Positions 2,010 through 17,132 of a DNA stretch of 64,000 nt are shown one piece after another. Made by a program: the position numbers and the translations under genes. Where the stretch lies: the NCBI GenBank assembly GCA_026390815.1, contig JAPLFH010000057.1:1-64000 (forward strand), written 5' to 3'. The first letter of the stretch is position 1. Every line of letters starts with the position of its first letter. The DNA comes from Ignavibacteriales bacterium (GTDB taxonomy: Bacteria > Bacteroidota > Ignavibacteria > Ignavibacteriales > SURF-24). The notes under the pieces are model-generated. The model saw nothing but the letters and a program-made list of their open reading frames with translations, did no database searches and was not told the origin of the DNA.

Positions 2010-2105
2010 AACTGGGTAATGTGATACCAGTTATTTTTAGTAATCAAATATTTATAATTGTACCAGAATCCAATTCCTTTATATAAAATGATGGTAATAA
2101 TTCAA

Positions 2106-4583
2106 ATGGAGTTTACTAAGAAAATATTATTCTTATTCTCAATTATCTTTAGTATAAGTTTTTCATTTTCATTACACGCGCAGGATGAACAATTTAAAAT
2201 CGTTTATCTCTCTCCATTACCAGGATCAATTTATAATTTGCCTCAAACCAATATCATCATTGCTACAAACGATTTAATTGATGAAAACAATTTTTTAAAT
2301 AATTCTGAATTGATAGTTCTCGGTTCTAAATCGGGGCAGCATACCGGTGAACTTATTGTAAGCGATGATAGAAAGACAATTGTTTTCAATGCTAATTTGG
2401 AATTTTTTGAAGAAGAAAGTATTACTGTGCAACTTCGTGGAGTTATTAAGGCGCAAAATGGAAAGGTAATTGATTCATTAGCTTTTAAATTTTGGGTTAA
2501 CAAAGCAAATTATAAATTCCAAATATCTTCTAACTATATGAAGGAATTTGAAAACAATTTTTACGCTAACAGCTCGAAGCAAAATCAAAATTATGAAGTT
2601 AATGCTCAATCAAACCTGGATAGTTTGCCTTCCGATTTTCCTAAATTTAGAATAACAGTCCGGGATAATCCTGATTCAGATTATATTTTCATAGGTACTA
2701 CTTCTGCCATAAATCCGTACATAATGATTTTAGATAACAATGGAAATCCGGTTTATTATAAACGAACAAGAAGTGGTACTTATGATTTCAAGGTTCAACC
2801 AAATGGTTGGCTGACTTATTATGATATGAAATCTTCGTTTTACTACGCAATGGATTCATCATATAATCTTGTTGATAGTTTTAAGTGCGGGAATGGGTAT
2901 TATACGGATTTGCATGAATTGCGATTACTGCCAAACGGTCATGCATTAATTCTAGGTGTTGATACCAAGACTATGGATATGAGTCGATTAGTAATTGGCG
3001 GAAGTACAACCGCTCTGGTAATTGGCAGCGTTGTTCAGGAGCTGGACAAAAATAAAAATGTGGTTTTCCAATGGTTGTGTTGGGATTACATTAATGTTAT
3101 TGATACTTATACTGACCCACGACAAAACTCATTCGATTTTTCTCATGGTAATGCAATAGAATTAGATGATGATGGAAATTTGTTAGTCTCATTTCGGAAT
3201 CTTCAGGAGATTACAAAAATAGATAGGGGAACCGGTAATATAATCTGGCGGCTGGGTGGGCGAAAAAATCAATTTAATTTTTTAAATGATACAATTGGTT
3301 TTTCCTGGCAGCATGCTGTTAGAAGATTAGCTAATGGTAATATTTTATTGTTTGATAATGGATTCAGACGCAATAATCCATCAATAATGTTTACCAGAGT
3401 AGTTGAATACAAACTTGATGAAAAATTGAAGACTGCTGAATTAATTTGGCAATGCAGGAATAATCCCGATGTCTATAGTATTGGATTAGGTTATGCGCAA
3501 AGATTAAAAAACGGAAATACATTTATCGGTTGGGGTTATACCTTTCCTACAATTACAGAAGTTCGTCCAGATGGTACTAAAGCATTTGAAATGTCATTCA
3601 AAGACAATTTGTTTACTTACCGGGCGTATCGCTTTCCATGGAAATCTAAATATCATTCTTTGGGAAAGCTTGAAATGTTAAACCTTGTAAACACATTCAA
3701 ACCGGTTGCTATAAATGATACAACCTCAGTTCTGGTGGTAATTAAAAATACACATGATAAACCAATTGCTATTAATTCAATAAAAAATCATTCAACCATC
3801 TTTTATACTCCATTAAATTTTCCCGTTACTATTCCTGCCGGTAATTTTATTGATTTAAAAATTTTCTTTAAGCCGATTGCCATTGGATATTTTTCGGATA
3901 CACTTGAAATTGATTATGATAGCGGCAAGGAAAATATTCTTTTATTCGGTGAATCGCCTGCTCCGGTGATAACTGCAAATGCCAACGAACTGGACTTTGG
4001 CGATGTTTTGATTAATCAAACTGTTTCTAAGCAAATATTAATTACAAATTCTTCAGTAAACAAATTAGTAATTGATTCATTAACTATAAGAACAAGACAA
4101 TTTATTACACCAAAAATATCACTTCCATATTCAATCAAAAGTGGTGATACACTTAAACTACAAATTTCTTTCAAGCCAGATTCCTTGATTACTTATTCTG
4201 ATTCCCTTTTCGTTTACACTAATTCTGATCCACGCATTTACAAAATCATATTAAAAGGAAATGCAATATTAACCGGCATAACTGCACAACAGAATTTAGC
4301 TCCTAAAGAATTTTCACTTAAACAAAATTTTCCAAATCCGTTCAATCAATCAACTATAATTCAATATGAAATAAGTGAACAGGTAAAAGTAAAAGTTAAT
4401 ATTTATAATTTGTTAGGACAGAATATAAAAACGCTTGTTGATGAAATCCAGCCAGCCGGTTACTATTCGATGAAATGGAAAGGAACGGATAATTCTGGTG
4501 TGACGGTTTGTAGTGGAGTATATGTGTATAGAATTCAGGCGGGTAATTATATTCTATCCAGAAAAATGTTAATGCTAAACTGA
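2106..4583 (+). CDS. Secreted arylsulfotransferase-like (ASST) beta-propeller protein with T9SS domain
   Basis: The protein belongs to the arylsulfotransferase (ASST) beta-propeller family and is probably exported to the cell surface. I chose the ATG at 2106 because it places a clean signal peptide (MEFTKKILFLFSIIF, cleaved near HAQ) at the N-terminus. An in-frame ATG at 2058 would add 16 residues ahead of it, and neither has a clear Shine-Dalgarno. Order: Ig-like Big_5 domain (about 30-135), propeller (about 175-520) with conserved His-containing blades (DLHELRLLPNGHAL, SHGNAIELDDDGN, WQHAVRRLANGN), two ASPM/HYDIN-like choice-of-anchor domains (about 530-750), and a T9SS sorting domain with NPFNQST. 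A paralogue lies at 12483-15374. Some ASST-fold proteins may not be sulfotransferases, so the reaction is uncertain. Family call is firm. Confidence 0.82.
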   Translation: MEFTKKILFLFSIIFSISFSFSLHAQDEQFKIVYLSPLPGSIYNLPQTNIIIATNDLIDENNFLNNSELIVLGSKSGQHTGELIVSDDRKTIVFNANLEFFEEESITVQLRGVIKAQNGKVIDSLAFKFWVNKANYKFQISSNYMKEFENNFYANSSKQNQNYEVNAQSNLDSLPSDFPKFRITVRDNPDSDYIFIGTTSAINPYIMILDNNGNPVYYKRTRSGTYDFKVQPNGWLTYYDMKSSFYYAMDSSYNLVDSFKCGNGYYTDLHELRLLPNGHALILGVDTKTMDMSRLVIGGSTTALVIGSVVQELDKNKNVVFQWLCWDYINVIDTYTDPRQNSFDFSHGNAIELDDDGNLLVSFRNLQEITKIDRGTGNIIWRLGGRKNQFNFLNDTIGFSWQHAVRRLANGNILLFDNGFRRNNPSIMFTRVVEYKLDEKLKTAELIWQCRNNPDVYSIGLGYAQRLKNGNTFIGWGYTFPTITEVRPDGTKAFEMSFKDNLFTYRAYRFPWKSKYHSLGKLEMLNLVNTFKPVAINDTTSVLVVIKNTHDKPIAINSIKNHSTIFYTPLNFPVTIPAGNFIDLKIFFKPIAIGYFSDTLEIDYDSGKENILLFGESPAPVITANANELDFGDVLINQTVSKQILITNSSVNKLVIDSLTIRTRQFITPKISLPYSIKSGDTLKLQISFKPDSLITYSDSLFVYTNSDPRIYKIILKGNAILTGITAQQNLAPKEFSLKQNFPNPFNQSTIIQYEISEQVKVKVNIYNLLGQNIKTLVDEIQPAGYYSMKWKGTDNSGVTVCSGVYVYRIQAGNYILSRKMLMLN

Positions 4584-8359: not shown

Positions 8360-10099
8360 ATGATAAATGTAATAAATAAAGGAATTATAGCTTGGATAGA
8401 AGTTGTTCTTCTATCCGGCTTTCTCCTTAGCCAGGAAGTAAATCCTGCAAAAACATTTTGCAATCCTCTTAACCTTAACTATAGGTTTATGATAGATGCA
8501 ATTGATGCGCGGGAAGCTGCCGATCCTGTAATTATATTGTTCAAGGGTGACTATTATCTTTTTGCTTCCAGATCCGGAGGCTATTGGTTCTCAAGTGATT
8601 TCCGGGATTGGAAGCTGGTTATTCCTACCGGTCTTCCAATTGAGGATTATGCCCCTGCAATTCTCGTAATTGATGATTCTGTTTATTACACAGCTTCCGG
8701 AACACCAGCTATATATGTAACTGCAGATCCCAAAAATGGTATATGGAAAAAGAGAGCTAATACAGAACCGTATGGTGATCCAGACCTTTTCCAGGATGAT
8801 GATGGAAGAGTTTATATGTATTCCGGCGTTTCAAATGTTAATGCCACTAAGTGTGTAGAACTTGATGTAAAAAATGGATTCGAGCCAATTGGAGTACCGG
8901 TAGATATTGTTTATCCAAATGCAAAAGAGCATGGTTGGGAAAGACGAGGAGATGATAATCTTCTTGACGAAAAACCCTGGATAGAAGGCTGCTGGATGAC
9001 AAAGTATAATGGTAAATATTATCTTCAATACTCTGCTCCTGGAACTGAATTCAAATCCTACGCTGATGGAATTTACCTTAGTGATAAACCACTTGGTCCT
9101 TTTACTTATATGCCTTATAGTCCTTTCTCCATTAAACCGAACGGGTTTGTTACTGGTGCAGGACACGCTTGTACCTTTAAAGATAAAACAGGAAATTGGT
9201 GGCGTATTGTTACTATGGTTGTTTCTGTAAAGCACGACTTTGAAAGACGACTTGGGTTATTCCCTGTTGGGTTTGATAAGGATGGTCAAATCTTTACGAA
9301 TACAATTTTTGGTGATTACCCGCAATATTTACCTGATGTTAAAACTAACCAAATAAAAAATAATTTTACCGGTTGGATGCTTCTTTCTAATAAAAAATAC
9401 GCTGAAGCTTCTTCTACATTACCTGGATATAGCGTGCAAAATGCAGTGGATGAAGATATAAAATCATATTGGGTTGCCAAAACCGGAAATGCTGATGAAT
9501 GGCTAATGATTGATCTTGGGAAAGTTTGTAAAATAAATGCAATACAAATTAATTTTGGTGAGCATAATACAATTCCCGATTTAGTGCAAGGACGAGCAAA
9601 TCAAATTTTTGAACAATATAAATTTGAAATATCATCAGATAATAAAAACTGGCTGCTACTTATTGATAAAAGTACGAATCAAACAGATGTTCCTCACGAT
9701 TATATTGAACTAATAAAACCCATAAGCGCCCGGTATATAAAGCTTATCAATGTTCAAACACCAGGTAAAGGTAATTTTTGTGTGCGCGATTTCCGGATAT
9801 TCGGGAATCCGGATGAAGTTAAGTTTACAAACGTAAAAACCTTTTCTGTAAATCGCGATTCAATTGATAGCCGTAATGCTTTAGTGAAATGGGAACCAGT
9901 TGCAAACGCGGACGGATATATAGTTAAGTATGGAATTGCCCCGGACAAATCATATAATCATTACCTGATTTATGATGAAATCAGTTTAGCTATTCACAGT
10001 TTAAATAAAGGAATTGAATATTTTTTTTCTGTTGAAGCGTTCGATAACGGTACCGAATATTATTACGGTGGTTATAATGATGTTAAAGATATGAAGTAG
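8360..10099 (+). CDS. GH43-like glycoside hydrolase with F5/8C carbohydrate-binding and Fn3 domains
   Basis: The N-terminal part (about 30-320) is a five-bladed propeller of GH43 type, usually arabinosidase, xylosidase or galactanase. The three expected acids are present: D55 in AADPVI (base), D140 in YGDPDLF (pKa modulator) and E209 in WIEGCW (acid). An F5/8 type C (discoidin) domain follows (about 335-470), with ASSTLPGYSVQNAVDE and WLMIDLGK, then an Fn3-like domain to residue 579. The N-terminus looks like a signal peptide (IIAWIEVVLLSGFLLSQ). There is no T9SS tail, unlike its upstream neighbours, so it may be periplasmic. It starts 34 bases after the CBM protein, consistent with one operon. 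Confidence 0.82.
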   Translation: MINVINKGIIAWIEVVLLSGFLLSQEVNPAKTFCNPLNLNYRFMIDAIDAREAADPVIILFKGDYYLFASRSGGYWFSSDFRDWKLVIPTGLPIEDYAPAILVIDDSVYYTASGTPAIYVTADPKNGIWKKRANTEPYGDPDLFQDDDGRVYMYSGVSNVNATKCVELDVKNGFEPIGVPVDIVYPNAKEHGWERRGDDNLLDEKPWIEGCWMTKYNGKYYLQYSAPGTEFKSYADGIYLSDKPLGPFTYMPYSPFSIKPNGFVTGAGHACTFKDKTGNWWRIVTMVVSVKHDFERRLGLFPVGFDKDGQIFTNTIFGDYPQYLPDVKTNQIKNNFTGWMLLSNKKYAEASSTLPGYSVQNAVDEDIKSYWVAKTGNADEWLMIDLGKVCKINAIQINFGEHNTIPDLVQGRANQIFEQYKFEISSDNKNWLLLIDKSTNQTDVPHDYIELIKPISARYIKLINVQTPGKGNFCVRDFRIFGNPDEVKFTNVKTFSVNRDSIDSRNALVKWEPVANADGYIVKYGIAPDKSYNHYLIYDEISLAIHSLNKGIEYFFSVEAFDNGTEYYYGGYNDVKDMK

Positions 10100-10347: not shown

Positions 10348-11352
10348 ATGGAATTAACACAAGTTGTATTAGGTATTGATGTCGGCGGGACAAATACTGT
10401 TTTCGGAATCGTTGATGAAGTCGGGAATTGTTTTTATAAAGATCAAATTCCAACAGACGGTCACCTTCCTGCAAACCACCTGTTCGATCGATTGTTTCAA
10501 AACTTTAACAAGAAGTTTGAAGTATTGAAAGACAGGATGGAATTAGTAGGAATAGGAGTTGGTGCCCCAACTGCAAATTATTTTAGAGGTACCGTCGAAA
10601 ATCCAAATAATTTAAAATGGGGTTACGTAAATGTAGTTGAATTAATAAATGAGCATTATGCCTTGCCTGTTGCTGTAACTAATGATGCAAATGCCGCGGC
10701 TGTTGGAGAAATGAAATATGGTGCGGCGAAAGAATTTAATAATTTTATTGAAATTACATTGGGTACTGGTTTAGGCAGCGGGATTATTATTGATGGTAAT
10801 TTAATTTATGGGCAAGAAGGTTTTGCCGGGGAAATTGGTCATACGGTAATTGAAGAACAAGGCAGGCATTGTGGCTGTGGTAGAAAAGGATGCTTGGAAA
10901 CTTACGCATCAGCAAACGGTATTAAACGAACCGTTTTTGAACTTCTTTCAAGACAGAATAATGATAGTTGTTTAAGGGACTACTCCTATAATTCCTTAAC
11001 TTCAAAACTGATTTGCGAATCAGCTATTAAAGGCGATAAAATTGCAAATGAAGCGTTTGAATATACCGGGAAAAAATTAGGTAAAGCTCTTGCAAATAGT
11101 GTAGCCCATTTAAACCCGGAAGCAATCATATTATATGGTGGATTAGCTTTAGCGGGAGATCTAATCTTAAAACCGGTTCAATATTACCTGGAAGACAGCC
11201 TGTTACATTTGTATAAAGATAAATTAAAAATATTAGTATCAAGCTTAATGAATGATGAAGATGCAGCAATACTTGGTTCCGCTGCAATTATTTGGTATGA
11301 TATCCAGCATAAAAAAAATAATTATCATTCATACGGAAAAATTAAGGAATGA
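10348..11352 (+). CDS. ROK family sugar kinase (glucokinase-like)
   Basis: A cytoplasmic ROK-family kinase, probably phosphorylating glucose or a related hexose with ATP. All signatures are intact: phosphate-binding DVGGT at 11-15, catalytic Asp113 in TNDANAAA, the second nucleotide loop GTGLGSG at 139-145, the zinc site with H165 in GEIGH and CGCGRKGC at 175-182, and the GGLA adenosine motif at 264-267. The length (334) is normal and there is no N-terminal HTH, so this is an enzyme and not a ROK repressor. A close paralogue of nearly gapless alignment follows 55 bases downstream. The 248 bases before it hold no gene. Confidence 0.9.
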   Translation: MELTQVVLGIDVGGTNTVFGIVDEVGNCFYKDQIPTDGHLPANHLFDRLFQNFNKKFEVLKDRMELVGIGVGAPTANYFRGTVENPNNLKWGYVNVVELINEHYALPVAVTNDANAAAVGEMKYGAAKEFNNFIEITLGTGLGSGIIIDGNLIYGQEGFAGEIGHTVIEEQGRHCGCGRKGCLETYASANGIKRTVFELLSRQNNDSCLRDYSYNSLTSKLICESAIKGDKIANEAFEYTGKKLGKALANSVAHLNPEAIILYGGLALAGDLILKPVQYYLEDSLLHLYKDKLKILVSSLMNDEDAAILGSAAIIWYDIQHKKNNYHSYGKIKE

Positions 11353-11407: not shown

Positions 11408-12436
11408 TTGAGTTTAACTGAAGTTACATTAGGGATAGAAATTGGAAGCACTCATACCGCTTTTGGGTTAGTAGATATTTCCGGAACCTGTTATGTAGAA
11501 GGGAAAATTCCTACCAAAGCTAATGAATCGCCAGAATCCTTGTTTGACAGATTGTTCAATAAATTTAAAAGAATTTACCGGGAGAATGCAGACAAATATG
11601 AATTGATAGGAATTGGAATCGGTGCACCCGGTGCAAATTATTATACAGGAACCGTGGAGTTTTCATCAAATTTAAATTGGGGTTACGTTAATATTGTTGA
11701 ATTAGTAAAAAATTATTTTGATTTGCCCATTGTAATTACCAATGATGCAAATGCTGCTGCAATTGGAGAAATGAAATTTGGTGTTGCCAAAGGAATGAAA
11801 AATTTTATTCAACTTACTTTAAGTAAAGGCTTTGGTAGCGGCATTGTTGTAGATGGAAACTTAGTATATGGAAGTGATGGGTTTGCCGGTGAAATTGGAC
11901 ATACAATTGTTGAAAAAAATGGTCGGTTGTGTGGATGCGGCAGAAAAGGCTGCCTGGAAACTTACGTTTCTACCAGTGGACTGATAAGAACTTTTTACGA
12001 ATTAATTGCACAGTCAAATGAAGTAAGTGTATTAAAAGAATTTCCCCCTGAAGAACTAACGGCAAAGTTAATTTATAAAGCGGCATTAAATGGAGATAAA
12101 CTTGCTCAAACTGTTTTTGAATTTACCGGAAAAATTCTTGGTGAAGCATTGGCAAATGCGGTTGCTTATCTTAGTCCGGAAGCCATTATACTGTCTGAAG
12201 GCTTGGCAATGGCGGGTGATCTTTTAGTTAAGCCAACTAAATATCATATGGAAGCTAATATGCTTAATATATTTAAGGGAAAAACTGAAATATTACTTTC
12301 AGGACTTACTAAAGGAAATGCAGCTATTATTGGTGCATGCGCTTTAATATGGCATGAAATCTCTAAAACCAACTCATTACTTAATACCGATAAACCAAAT
12401 ACCAACCAGGTTTTAGTTAATGGTAATCATTTGTAA
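11408..12436 (+). CDS. ROK family paralogue with degenerate ATP-binding motifs
   Basis: The protein aligns without gaps to the ROK kinase just upstream for at least 270 residues and is clearly a tandem duplicate. The start is TTG at 11408 with GAGG seven bases upstream. The sugar-binding and zinc parts are kept: TNDANAAA with D113, GEIGH at 161-165 and CGCGRKGC at 175-182. The three nucleotide-binding motifs are altered: DVGGT is EIGST (11-15), GTGLGSG is SKGFGSG (139-145) and GGLA is EGLA (264-267). This points to a sugar-binding pseudokinase, perhaps a sensor or a regulatory partner of the intact enzyme, although weak activity cannot be excluded. There is no HTH domain. Confidence 0.85.
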   Translation: MSLTEVTLGIEIGSTHTAFGLVDISGTCYVEGKIPTKANESPESLFDRLFNKFKRIYRENADKYELIGIGIGAPGANYYTGTVEFSSNLNWGYVNIVELVKNYFDLPIVITNDANAAAIGEMKFGVAKGMKNFIQLTLSKGFGSGIVVDGNLVYGSDGFAGEIGHTIVEKNGRLCGCGRKGCLETYVSTSGLIRTFYELIAQSNEVSVLKEFPPEELTAKLIYKAALNGDKLAQTVFEFTGKILGEALANAVAYLSPEAIILSEGLAMAGDLLVKPTKYHMEANMLNIFKGKTEILLSGLTKGNAAIIGACALIWHEISKTNSLLNTDKPNTNQVLVNGNHL

Positions 12437-12482
12437 TAAACAAATGAATATTCTATCAAATCCAAAATGGAATTACAGCAAA

Positions 12483-15374
12483 ATGTTTTTAAAATATTTA
12501 ATTTCTAAAAACGTAAGAATAATATTCTTACTAATAATCTGTACTGCAGATTCATTTCCCCAATCTTCTTTTCAATATATCTCACCAAAACCATTTGCTA
12601 AAATGGTTTCTGCAGAAACAAATATTATTATACGTAAAGGGATTTCGATTGACCCCGCTTCATTAATTGATGAAATGATAATTACTGTTAGCGGTTCTAA
12701 GAGTGGATTGCATAAAGGAAAACTTATACTTGCGGATGACAATAAAACTATTCTTTTCATTCCTTCAAAACAATTTGATCGGGATGAATTGGTTTCGGTC
12801 TCTTTGCACAATGGTATTAAATGTACTGATGGAAGTGAAATCGGAAGGTTGGAATTCGAATTCACCACAACTTCATTTAATCGGAAAACTCCTATCTCAG
12901 ATTCAATAAAAAAGAAAGTATTTGATGAAGAAGTTCTAAGCCGAGAAATTCAAACTATTGGATTGAATAAAGTATCCGAAGTAAATGATACAATACCTTC
13001 CGACTTTCCGGAAATACACATTGATACTGTCAATAATCCAGCTCCAGGTTATCTTTTTCTAACCGTCTCAAGGGATGTAGCTGGTATTGGTAATTATAAT
13101 ATGATTCTTGATAACAGCGGTAGACCCGTTAAATATATAAAAGAAAATCATTTTAGTTACGATTTTAAAGTTCAACCAAACAATCTTCTTTCATATGGTG
13201 ATATTAAAGAAGAACACTGGTACGCCGGTGGTGGGGAAACAACTCATAAAATATTAGATAGCAATCTTACTGTGGTAGATTCATTCAGATGTGGAAATGG
13301 ATATGTAGCAGATAGCCATGACTTTCAACTTTTACCAAATGGTCATGCTTTATTATTTGGCTATGATTTACAGCCAATTGATATGAGTAAAATTGTTGAA
13401 GGTGGTGATCCGGGAGCATTTGTTGCAGGTTCAATCGTTCAGGAAATTGATGCACAGAAAAATGTTGTATTCGAGTGGAGAAGCTGGGATCATATTCCAA
13501 TTACAGAATCATATGTCAATCTGCGCAGTTCTGCATTCGATTATATTCACATTAATGCAATTGAATTAGATAGTGATGGAAATATTTTGGTTTCGTGCAG
13601 ACAAACAAGTCAGGTATTAAAATTAGATAGAACTACAGGTGAAATTATTTGGCGGCTTGGAGGTAAACAAAATCAATTTACTTTTATAAATGAAAATGAA
13701 TTGAATACACCAAATTATTTTTCATTTCAGCATTGTGTAAGAAGATTGGCAAACGGTCATTTAAGTTTATTCGATAATGGAAATCAACATACTCCTGGTT
13801 ATTCAAGAGCAGTTGAATATGAATTGGATGAACAGAATAAAATTGCCACGCTGGTTTGGGAATATCGTCATTCACCGGATGTGTTCGCTTCTTCACGTGG
13901 ATCAGTCCAACGGTTGCCTAATGGTAATACACTTATCGGCTGGGGCTCTTCAAGTGAAGCAAAAAAATTAGCTGTTACAGAAGTTACTCCAGACAAAAAA
14001 GTTGTTTTCGAATTGTCTTTGCCTCTAAAACTTAGCAGTTACCGGGCATATAGATTTCAGTATTTTAATTATATCCCATCAGTATCTGTAAACCTGTTTG
14101 ATCTTTTGCCCAACAATCTATATGTATTTAGTAAGGATGAGCTTTCAACGGGTGTAAAAATTAAGTTTAATCAAATAAACTTTGGCTATAATAGGGTGCA
14201 AGTTACAAAACATAATAATGCCTCGGTAAAACCGGAATTTTTAATTGATGCACCAATTGCTTCTTCTGTAAGGATTGTGGTTGAACAAGAGGGTATTGAA
14301 AGTTTTAACGGTGAGATTAGATTTGATTCAACCTTTACAAAAAAATTTGATAATCCGCAGAATGTAGTTGTATTTTCCAGGGAGGTTGAAGGGCAGGGAA
14401 TTTTTAAACAACTGCCTACATCTTTTAATTCAAGCACAAATGAATTAATTGCATCCATTACATCAATGGGCGAATTTATCTTCTGCAGATATTATCCGGC
14501 ACAAAAGGCAACTACACCTTCAATAGTATTTCCTGAAAATCAGGATAGTGTAAACCAGCGGCTTCCATTGGAAATAAGATGGACTCTAAACGGATATTCA
14601 ACAGGTTTTCAATTACAGGTAGCAAAGGACTCGCTCTTTACTGAAATATTATTAAATGATTCTTTGCTTAAGTCAAGCATTTATACAGTTGAACATCTTA
14701 ATCCTGACTCAAAATATTTTTGGAGAGTGAGAGCTTATACCACTGGTGGTTATAGCTCATATACTGGGACAAATGTTTTTTATACAATTGCTCCATACAT
14801 AAAAATTACGTCACCTAATGGAGGAGAAATTTTAGAATCTGGTAAAGAATACTATATACGATGGAATGATAATATAATGGAAGATGTGAAGGTAGAACTT
14901 TTTAAAGATGGTGTTTTCTATAAACCAATAATTGATACTACTATTAGTAACGGTTCATATAAATTTGAAATTCCATCAGACATTTCGGTTGACTCTCTTT
15001 ATCAATTAAAAATAACTAGCATTAAAGACTCATTGTTGTATGATATAAGTGATAAAGTATTTACAATAACTAACGCAACTGATGTAACAAAAGATTTGCC
15101 AGGAACTATATCAGAATTTACGTTGATGCAAAATTATCCCAATCCTTTTAATCCGTGCACTATAATTAAATATTCCATTCCACAGGATTGTTTTGTTTCG
15201 CTTAAAGTATATAACATCTTAGGCAAAGAAATGGTCAGTTTGGTTAATAAAGAACAAAATATCGGCAACTATACAATTTCATTTGATGCAAATTCATTAT
15301 CCAGTGGAATATATTTTTATCATTTACAAGCAGGAAAGTTTTCTGCAACTAAAAAATTATCGGTGATAAAGTAG
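12483..15374 (+). CDS. Secreted arylsulfotransferase-like protein with T9SS domain (paralogue)
   Basis: This is a second ASST-family propeller protein, related over its N-terminal Ig-like and propeller parts to the one at 2106-4583. I prefer ATG 12483, which gives a compact signal peptide (MFLKYLISKNVRIIFLL, cleaved near SFPQ). ATG 12444 and an ATG at 12420 inside the preceding ROK gene are also in frame. After the propeller (about 140-550; blades DSHDFQLLPNGHALL, HINAIELDSDGN, FQHCVRRLANGH) the C-terminal modules differ from the first copy. There is an Fn3-like domain (about 680-770), a Ser-Thr-rich membrane-anchored-type domain starting KITSPNGGEILESG (about 770-855), then a T9SS domain with NPFNPCT. 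Role is as uncertain as for its paralogue. Confidence 0.8.
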   Translation: MFLKYLISKNVRIIFLLIICTADSFPQSSFQYISPKPFAKMVSAETNIIIRKGISIDPASLIDEMIITVSGSKSGLHKGKLILADDNKTILFIPSKQFDRDELVSVSLHNGIKCTDGSEIGRLEFEFTTTSFNRKTPISDSIKKKVFDEEVLSREIQTIGLNKVSEVNDTIPSDFPEIHIDTVNNPAPGYLFLTVSRDVAGIGNYNMILDNSGRPVKYIKENHFSYDFKVQPNNLLSYGDIKEEHWYAGGGETTHKILDSNLTVVDSFRCGNGYVADSHDFQLLPNGHALLFGYDLQPIDMSKIVEGGDPGAFVAGSIVQEIDAQKNVVFEWRSWDHIPITESYVNLRSSAFDYIHINAIELDSDGNILVSCRQTSQVLKLDRTTGEIIWRLGGKQNQFTFINENELNTPNYFSFQHCVRRLANGHLSLFDNGNQHTPGYSRAVEYELDEQNKIATLVWEYRHSPDVFASSRGSVQRLPNGNTLIGWGSSSEAKKLAVTEVTPDKKVVFELSLPLKLSSYRAYRFQYFNYIPSVSVNLFDLLPNNLYVFSKDELSTGVKIKFNQINFGYNRVQVTKHNNASVKPEFLIDAPIASSVRIVVEQEGIESFNGEIRFDSTFTKKFDNPQNVVVFSREVEGQGIFKQLPTSFNSSTNELIASITSMGEFIFCRYYPAQKATTPSIVFPENQDSVNQRLPLEIRWTLNGYSTGFQLQVAKDSLFTEILLNDSLLKSSIYTVEHLNPDSKYFWRVRAYTTGGYSSYTGTNVFYTIAPYIKITSPNGGEILESGKEYYIRWNDNIMEDVKVELFKDGVFYKPIIDTTISNGSYKFEIPSDISVDSLYQLKITSIKDSLLYDISDKVFTITNATDVTKDLPGTISEFTLMQNYPNPFNPCTIIKYSIPQDCFVSLKVYNILGKEMVSLVNKEQNIGNYTISFDANSLSSGIYFYHLQAGKFSATKKLSVIK

Positions 15375-15605: not shown

Positions 15606-17132
15606 ATGAAAATATTAATGAGCATTTTATGTTTTTTCTTTTCTGTTGCTAATATCTTCCTGGCTGAAGATTTAAATATCATTCCTAAACCTGTTAGTGA
15701 AATAACAACAAATGAAAAATTTCTACTTAAAAATAATTGTGGAATATATCTAACTTCTGATAACAAGGAATTAAGAAGACTTGCTGAATCATTAAAAAAT
15801 ACTTTGCATAAAAGAACCGGATTAAATATTAACATCAAAAAGGGTAATACAAATAATGGTTTCCTTTTAGATTTAAATCCTAACAGCAAGTTAAAAACTG
15901 ATGGATATGAATTAACAATAGATGCCAAAGTGATCAAACTAAGCGGGGTAAACAGCAAAGGAATATTTTATGGAATTCAAACATTGGGTATGCTATTAAA
16001 TAAAGATGAAAATATATTTTTCCCAGGATGTAAGATTGTTGATTATCCGCAGTACCCTCACCGGGGTTTTATGTTGGATGCCAGTAGACATTTTCAATCA
16101 ATTGAATTTGTTAAAAAAGTTTTAGATGTAATGGCACTTCTAAAACTCAACGTATTTCACTGGCATTTGGTTGATGATGAAGGGTGGCGGATTGAGAGCA
16201 AAATATATCCTGAGTTAAATGAAATTGGGTCTTACCGCGATTCCTTAAATTCCAGGGAAAGAAATGGATACTATACAGTTGAAGAAATAAAAGAAGTTTT
16301 GCAATATGCGAAAAAGCTCTACATAAAAGTTATTCCGGAAATCGAAATGCCAGGGCATTCAAGTGCCGTTATGGAAAGTTATCCGGAATTATTATGTCCA
16401 ACCGGTAAAAATGGAAAAACATACTGTGCTGGTAATGCAAAGACTTATGAGTTTATTAGGAATGTAATTGAAGAAATAATAAATATTTTTCATCCTGAAA
16501 TTATACATGTTGGTGGAGATGAACGCCCAAAAGGTGTTTGGGAAAAATGTCCGAAGTGTAAAGCAATGATTTCATTGAAAGGATTGGCGGATGAAAACAT
16601 GCTCCAAAATTATTTTATGAAAGACATCTGCAATTTTATTTCGGGTAAAGGAATTAAAACCTTAGCCTGGGCTGAAAATATAAAAGATGGAGTTCCTGAA
16701 AATCAAATAGTGCAAGGTTGGCACCCAGGAGAATCCTGGGAAGCCGCAAGAAAAGGATATTATACTGTTAATGCTGATAACATTTATACATATTTCGATT
16801 ATCCAAGCTATCCTAGAAATGATAAACCTGATTGGATGCCAGTGCTTAACTTGAAAAAAGTTTATTCGTTTAATCCAACTCCCGATAGCCTTAGTGAAAG
16901 CGAAAAGAAATTTGTAATTGGAAGTGAATGCGCTCTTTGGACAGAATTGGTTTTTGAGAATGATGTTCAGTATCAGATTTTCCCGAGGATTCTTGCTTTT
17001 GCAGAAGTTGTTTGGAGCCAGACCGCTGACAAAAACTATGATAACTTTTTAATCCGTGTAAAAAATGTCCAATCGCTTTTAAAGAATAAAGGATTTGAAT
17101 ACGAAAAAGGTGAATCTCTAAATCCATGGTAA
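15606..17132 (+). CDS. GH20 beta-N-acetylhexosaminidase
   Basis: An exported family 20 exo-hexosaminidase removing terminal GlcNAc or GalNAc. A signal peptide covers residues 1-20 (MKILMSILCFFFSVANIFLA). The N-terminal GH20b domain (about 21-148) begins LNIIPKP, as is usual. The catalytic TIM barrel starts at PHRGFMLDASRHF (151) and contains FHWHLVDDEGWR (185-195), PEIEMPGH (244-251) and the catalytic pair D305-E306 in HVGGDERP. The length of 508 is typical of the two-domain enzymes. It closes the glycan block; the 230 bases before it hold no gene, so it may have its own promoter. Confidence in the family is very high. Confidence 0.93.
   Translation: MKILMSILCFFFSVANIFLAEDLNIIPKPVSEITTNEKFLLKNNCGIYLTSDNKELRRLAESLKNTLHKRTGLNINIKKGNTNNGFLLDLNPNSKLKTDGYELTIDAKVIKLSGVNSKGIFYGIQTLGMLLNKDENIFFPGCKIVDYPQYPHRGFMLDASRHFQSIEFVKKVLDVMALLKLNVFHWHLVDDEGWRIESKIYPELNEIGSYRDSLNSRERNGYYTVEEIKEVLQYAKKLYIKVIPEIEMPGHSSAVMESYPELLCPTGKNGKTYCAGNAKTYEFIRNVIEEIINIFHPEIIHVGGDERPKGVWEKCPKCKAMISLKGLADENMLQNYFMKDICNFISGKGIKTLAWAENIKDGVPENQIVQGWHPGESWEAARKGYYTVNADNIYTYFDYPSYPRNDKPDWMPVLNLKKVYSFNPTPDSLSESEKKFVIGSECALWTELVFENDVQYQIFPRILAFAEVVWSQTADKNYDNFLIRVKNVQSLLKNKGFEYEKGESLNPW

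Follow-up and report, generated by a model that had tools for sequence, protein, structure and literature searches.

The window analysed here, a 64,000-nucleotide stretch of an Ignavibacteriales genome, carries two ROK-family genes in tandem on the forward strand. The upstream gene (10348–11352) encodes a 334-residue protein with the intact kinase motifs DVGGT, GTGLGSG and GGLA, and the downstream gene (11408–12436) encodes a 342-residue protein in which these motifs are altered; we refer to them as the sister kinase and the pseudokinase. The pseudokinase opens with a TTG codon preceded by a good Shine-Dalgarno sequence (GAGGTG), and a close orthologue (L041) has ATG at the same residue. The sister kinase scores 214.3 bits against PF00480 and the pseudokinase 202.5 bits, which passes the gathering score of 22.9 bits, and both fall under the TIGR00744 cut-off of 260 bits (220 and 203 bits, respectively). 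ROK is the sole Pfam match of the pseudokinase and begins at residue 8, so that an N-terminal winged helix-turn-helix (HTH) domain cannot fit upstream; the AlphaFold2 model shows no additional N-terminal domain, and the sister kinase likewise begins with the ROK domain and has no HTH. The sequence-only reading had noted this absence correctly, and interpretation of the gene as an HTH regulator is ruled out by the domain start.

Upstream of the pair lies a GH43 glycosidase with an F5/8C domain (8360–10099) and downstream a GH20 beta-N-acetylhexosaminidase (15606–17132), both on the forward strand, and the window also has GH16 coding capacity. The gene directly following the pseudokinase (12420–15374, forward strand) encodes an ASST-domain protein with a T9SS sorting tail, as it does at three of the orthologous loci (L043, L044 and L121). 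A further ASST (arylsulfotransferase-domain) protein is encoded at 2058–4583 in this carbohydrate cluster, and both proteins end in C-terminal tails of the secretion type. Promoter-like matches showed no excess over shuffled expectation, and the terminator scan returned no site between the two ROK genes and one weak site inside the pseudokinase.

The two ROK proteins share 54% identity and 77% positives over 320 aligned residues. Their comparison had been described as gapless, which holds for the motifs, all at identical positions, but a single gap is present near the C-terminus, distant from them. In the pairwise alignment the phosphate-1/metal motif DVGGT (DxGGT in kinases) is replaced by EIGST (E11; 11438–11452), the phosphate-2 loop GTGLGSG (GTGxGxG) by SKGFGSG (S139 and K140; 11822–11842), and GGLA of the adenosine loop (GG(L/V), preceded by Phe or Tyr in kinases) by EGLA, within SEGLA (S263 and E264; 12194–12208). 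The catalytic-base and sugar loop TNDANAAAIG (N112 and D113; 11738–11767) is retained, as are GEIGH (E162 and H165) and the zinc motif CGCGRKGCLE (C175, C177, C182 and E184), both within 11888–11959; TNDANAAA, GEIGH and CGCGRKGC are identical between the two proteins, just as the sequence-only reading had stated. Its description of the three ATP motifs as lost was too strong: all three are altered, but none is deleted and several of their residues remain (G13, G141, G143, G145 and G265 throughout, and T15 in five of six copies).

Those six copies come from 6 of the 164 genomes of the order, namely the window and five orthologues that are 73–81% identical to it: G038 (L041, 81%), G050 (L044, 76%), G119 (L042, bacterium BRH_c32, 75%), G051 (L043, a Melioribacter roseus MAG, 74%) and G001 (L121, 73%). 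They are spread over three families and have open frames throughout. No further orthologue was found in 395 genomes of the phylum. The degenerate DNA pattern for TL-x-(K/R)-GFGSGIV recovered five of the six known copies in 391 genomes of the class, G001 not being among the genomes listed, and scanning the genomes of 84,980 species gave at least four matches above 70%, consistent with Ignavibacteria-related sources. Frameshifted copies would have spoken for decay, and none of the six is frameshifted; six open copies in independent assemblies also rule out an assembly error or a pseudogene.

We compared the six copies residue by residue with 119 canonical relatives. All six have Glu11, Ser or Asp139, Lys or Arg140, Ser263 and Glu264, where the canonical proteins have Asp11 in 118 of 119 (the remaining one is a gap) and Gly139, Thr140 and Gly264 without exception. 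The change of Phe/Tyr to Ser263, directly before Glu264, is clade-wide, S14 (GGT to GST) is private to the window genome, and replacement of Thr15 by Met occurs only in G001. At the same time, the sugar residues N112, D113 (the base), E162, H165 and E184 are kept in all six, the zinc cysteines are unchanged, and the zinc motif GHx9-11CxCGx2GCxE, present in the window as GHTIVEKNGRLCGCGRKGCLE, persists in every copy with variation at the x residues. The selectivity is also apparent across the protein. Of the 102 columns with at least 90% conservation, all six copies differ at seven, five of which fall within the 13 ATP-motif columns (hypergeometric p = 2.8e-4, for columns that are not truly independent); of the two changes elsewhere, that in column 75 is found in the sister kinases too.

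These positions can be interpreted with the ternary complex formed by NagK of Plesiomonas shigelloides. There, the side chains of T10, D105, T132 and E196 hold AMP-PNP, which also contacts the main chain of G9, T10 and G255, and D6, the proposed metal ligand, is described only as conserved acidic in ROK proteins (PMC10031466). In register with NagK, E11 corresponds to D6, K140 to T132, E264 to G254 and G265 to G255. Judged by this alignment, the metal-binding acid is lengthened, the nucleotide-holding threonine is replaced by a basic residue, and a glutamate is placed beside the phosphate-coordinating glycine. Asp to Glu11 leaves an acid at the metal position and, as a conservative change, possibly counts against full loss of catalysis.

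The fold of the pseudokinase is predicted to be intact. The AlphaFold2 model, built from 44 sequences, has a mean pLDDT of 91.3 with low confidence only at residues 329–342. Among solved structures, two ROK glucokinases are closest to it in fold, 2qm1 (Z 38.2) and 3vgk (Z 36.0); the ROK hexokinase 3vov and the repressor Mlc come next, both at Z 33.8, and the polyphosphate/ATP glucomannokinase 1woq reaches Z 25.2.

In a tree of 88 sequences, the six pseudokinases form one clade (support 100/100), the sister kinases another (100/99), and the two clades are sisters (100/96), a placement that supports the tandem duplication originally proposed. Sequence identity by itself would put the pseudokinase nearer to the other canonical kinase of its genome, on contig C39 (62%), but the tree groups it with the faster-evolving neighbour kinase instead. 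The pseudokinase clade has a stem of 0.34 and tips of 0.055–0.15, whereas the sister kinase tips measure 0.23–0.35, excluding a 168-residue fragment. A long stem with short tips points to rapid change early on and strong constraint since then. In line with this, each of the six matched genome pairs has a lower dN for the pseudokinase than for the sister (0.130 vs. 0.221 in one of them); since dS is saturated and dN/dS ratios are not quantitative, the rate comparison is based on dN and branch lengths. Relatives thus preserve the altered copy better than the normal kinase, and the pseudokinase probably has a job of its own. The earlier claim of selective change at the nucleotide site instead of random decay is well supported by the open frames, the clade-wide motifs and the low dN, and this derived loss of conserved residues, maintained by purifying selection, is at the sequence level that of a pseudokinase.

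Members of the sister clade, which share 63–73% identity with the window kinase, turned up exclusively in genomes that also encode the pseudokinase, and the kinase gene adjoins the pseudokinase gene in five of the six genomes, including L041 and L121. At L043 the order is SSF transporter, NagB-LmbE-like gene, kinase, pseudokinase, ASST-T9SS gene and aldose epimerase. The same core from the NagB-LmbE-like to the ASST gene is present in G050, split by an assembly gap over contigs C27 and C8, with the kinase N-terminus following the NagB-LmbE-like gene on one contig and its C-terminus preceding the pseudokinase on the other. The exception is BRH_c32, a 94% complete genome in which the best other ROK protein is 39% identical to the sister: here (L042, 6660–10978) a LytTR response regulator, a NagB-LmbE-like gene and, 46 bp on, the pseudokinase are found and the sister kinase is absent. 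The topologies of the two clades match, and G000 and G001, both of family f1, are not sisters in the tree, which together suggests that kinase and pseudokinase moved between lineages as a unit. From the glycoside hydrolase genes and the NagB-LmbE-like neighbours, a polysaccharide/amino-sugar context is likely.

The NagB-LmbE-like proteins (L043 6335–8704 and L042 7591–9954; 787–789 residues) are themselves divergent, scoring 221–227 bits against PRK02122 vs. a cut-off of 384. They retain SLPTGKTP, QIDEF, GPDGHIGFN and PHHDD, motifs that are catalytic in glucosamine-6-phosphate deaminase and in deacetylases of the LmbE type. No such gene occurs in the window, nor was a close match found elsewhere in its genome.

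In fold, zinc site, sugar-binding Asn/Asp/Glu/His/Glu and lack of an HTH, the pseudokinase resembles the HTH-less ROK kinases (the TIGR00744 glucokinase, NagK and NanK), but all three of its nucleotide motifs are altered. It shares degenerate ATP motifs and a largely kept sugar pocket with the ROK domains of the repressors NagC and Mlc; unlike the pseudokinase, these have an N-terminal HTH, and they carry His where it keeps Asn112. NagC is a repressor responsive to GlcNAc-6-phosphate, and in E. coli NagC the position of the kinase Thr132 is occupied by Arg, compared with Lys or Arg in the pseudokinase clade.

Our preferred explanation, held at slightly better than even confidence, is that the protein is a sugar-binding ROK pseudokinase acting as regulatory subunit or sensor for the neighbouring kinase, and that it binds the kinase's sugar or the corresponding 6-phosphate. 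In this account, an ancestral HTH-less ROK sugar kinase was duplicated in tandem. One duplicate stayed a canonical kinase; in the second, fold, zinc site and sugar pocket were preserved while the residues holding Mg-ATP were replaced, and strong constraint set in afterwards. The sequence changes, the constraint, the common ancestry and the pairing of the genes are observed directly; beyond them we infer for the pseudokinase a loss of activity and ATP binding, a sugar ligand, association in a hetero-oligomer and a regulatory role. Of the two candidate ligands, the sugar of the kinase and its 6-phosphorylated product, the latter is the more likely; Lys/Arg140 would then occupy the place of the transferred phosphate, and regulation within the polysaccharide/amino-sugar operon would probably proceed via the hetero-oligomer. 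The product-sensor detail derives from the position of Lys/Arg140 and from the Arg at the same place in NagC; being one repressor, NagC offers thin support by analogy. The heterodimer idea is helped by the co-occurrence and the congruent trees and, as an obligate rule, weakened by BRH_c32. That the window's genome has no close NagB-LmbE-like gene also counts against the preferred explanation.

Since the base and the acid at the metal site are preserved, the main rival to a regulatory pseudokinase is an enzyme with a different phosphoryl donor, such as polyphosphate, pyrophosphate, a sugar phosphate or a nucleotide other than ATP. In such an enzyme, a new donor site would be made up of Lys/Arg140 and the altered adenosine loop, with the base, the metal acid and the sugar pocket serving catalysis. 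Retention of Asp113, of an acid at the metal position and of T15 in five of six copies makes residual or altered catalysis possible, the fold family includes 1woq, and slow evolution is compatible with an enzyme. Yet Glu264 would put a negative charge next to the donor phosphates, and NagC and Mlc keep the Asp and are no kinases, so a retained Asp is no proof of catalysis; we judge such an enzyme unlikely. Even less probable is an ordinary ATP-dependent ROK kinase that tolerates the motif changes. Glu11 is still acidic and G13, T15, G141 and G265 remain, but the Thr132 equivalent, whose side chain contacts and holds the nucleotide, is invariant in the 119 relatives, and five nucleotide-site positions changed together and remain changed. 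A decaying duplicate, i.e., a pseudogene in the making, is the usual first suspicion for a tandem copy with altered motifs; it is already contradicted by the six open copies in three families, by a dN below that of the intact sister and by the 60 of 74 nearly invariant columns of the family that every copy retains, and its chances are negligible.

About as unlikely as the enzyme with another donor is a stand-alone sensor of a sugar or sugar 6-phosphate that targets not the sister kinase but, e.g., an operon regulator or the NagB-LmbE-like enzyme. BRH_c32, where response regulator, NagB-LmbE-like gene and pseudokinase stand together in the absence of the kinase, would fit such a sensor, as would the Arg of the GlcNAc-6-phosphate-responsive NagC. 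Against it, the sister adjoins the pseudokinase in most genomes and was never found without it, and a protein that has no HTH would not bind DNA directly.

ROK proteins have so far been described as kinases or as HTH repressors, and in the open-access literature we found no paper naming an HTH-less ROK pseudokinase, only analogues. The general kinds are already known: the ROK family, pseudokinases, and dead paralogues that regulate their partners. TsaB, a non-catalytic ASKHA paralogue that pairs with the active TsaD (PMC9654439), offers a mechanistic analogue from the same superfamily, but it belongs to a different family and reaction and has a truncated C-lobe, whereas the pseudokinase is full length and its hetero-oligomer putative. 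In the trypanosome prozymes (AdoMetDC and deoxyhypusine synthase), a dead paralogue activates its living partner (PMC5201418, PMC3663545); those are eukaryotic, unrelated enzymes, and by comparison a complex of the ROK pair is again putative. If true, a conserved HTH-less pseudokinase beside a kinase in two independent lineages of one order would be a natural experiment in the turning of a metabolic enzyme into a regulator, and might represent an intermediate that links ROK kinases with ROK repressors. Six positions, i.e., the five derived nucleotide-site residues and the private S14, make the idea testable by mutation.

The second of these lineages, which we consider the most important addition to the original observation, is represented in the same genome by another ROK tandem on contig C54 (52242–54283; L009 1492–2445 and 2589–3536). 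Its downstream member is canonical (DLGGT, DSDRA, GTGIGAG, GGG) and its upstream member degenerate (DLIST, DNNRT, GKGIGAG, GGN). In the order, 15 genomes carry the upstream lineage, every one of them together with the canonical partner, which itself is found in 17. Most of its members have a disrupted DLGGT loop, a Lys, Arg, Asn or Ser in place of the GTG Thr, and a Lys or Asn in place of the catalytic-loop Asp; in several genomes the two genes are non-adjacent. Since the window pair is only a distant relative of the two C54 genes, pairing of ROK kinase and pseudokinase arose at least twice here, and the second case also speaks for the regulatory reading of the first. It is conceivable, although we would lean against it, that product-sensing pseudokinases, with the phosphate-loop Thr turned basic and binding sugar 6-phosphate, control their partners as a third ROK class.

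Other ROK arrangements were seen as well. At two loci of the same order (L129 8969–11234 and L130 9317–11649), the gene for a ROK protein of HTH-repressor length (402–404 residues) with broken ATP motifs immediately precedes that for a canonical HTH-less ROK kinase. Tandem ROK kinases that are both canonical occur in Bacteroidota including Prevotellaceae (L120 7669–9641 and L108 9908–11955), indicating that this kinase clade has undergone tandem duplication repeatedly.
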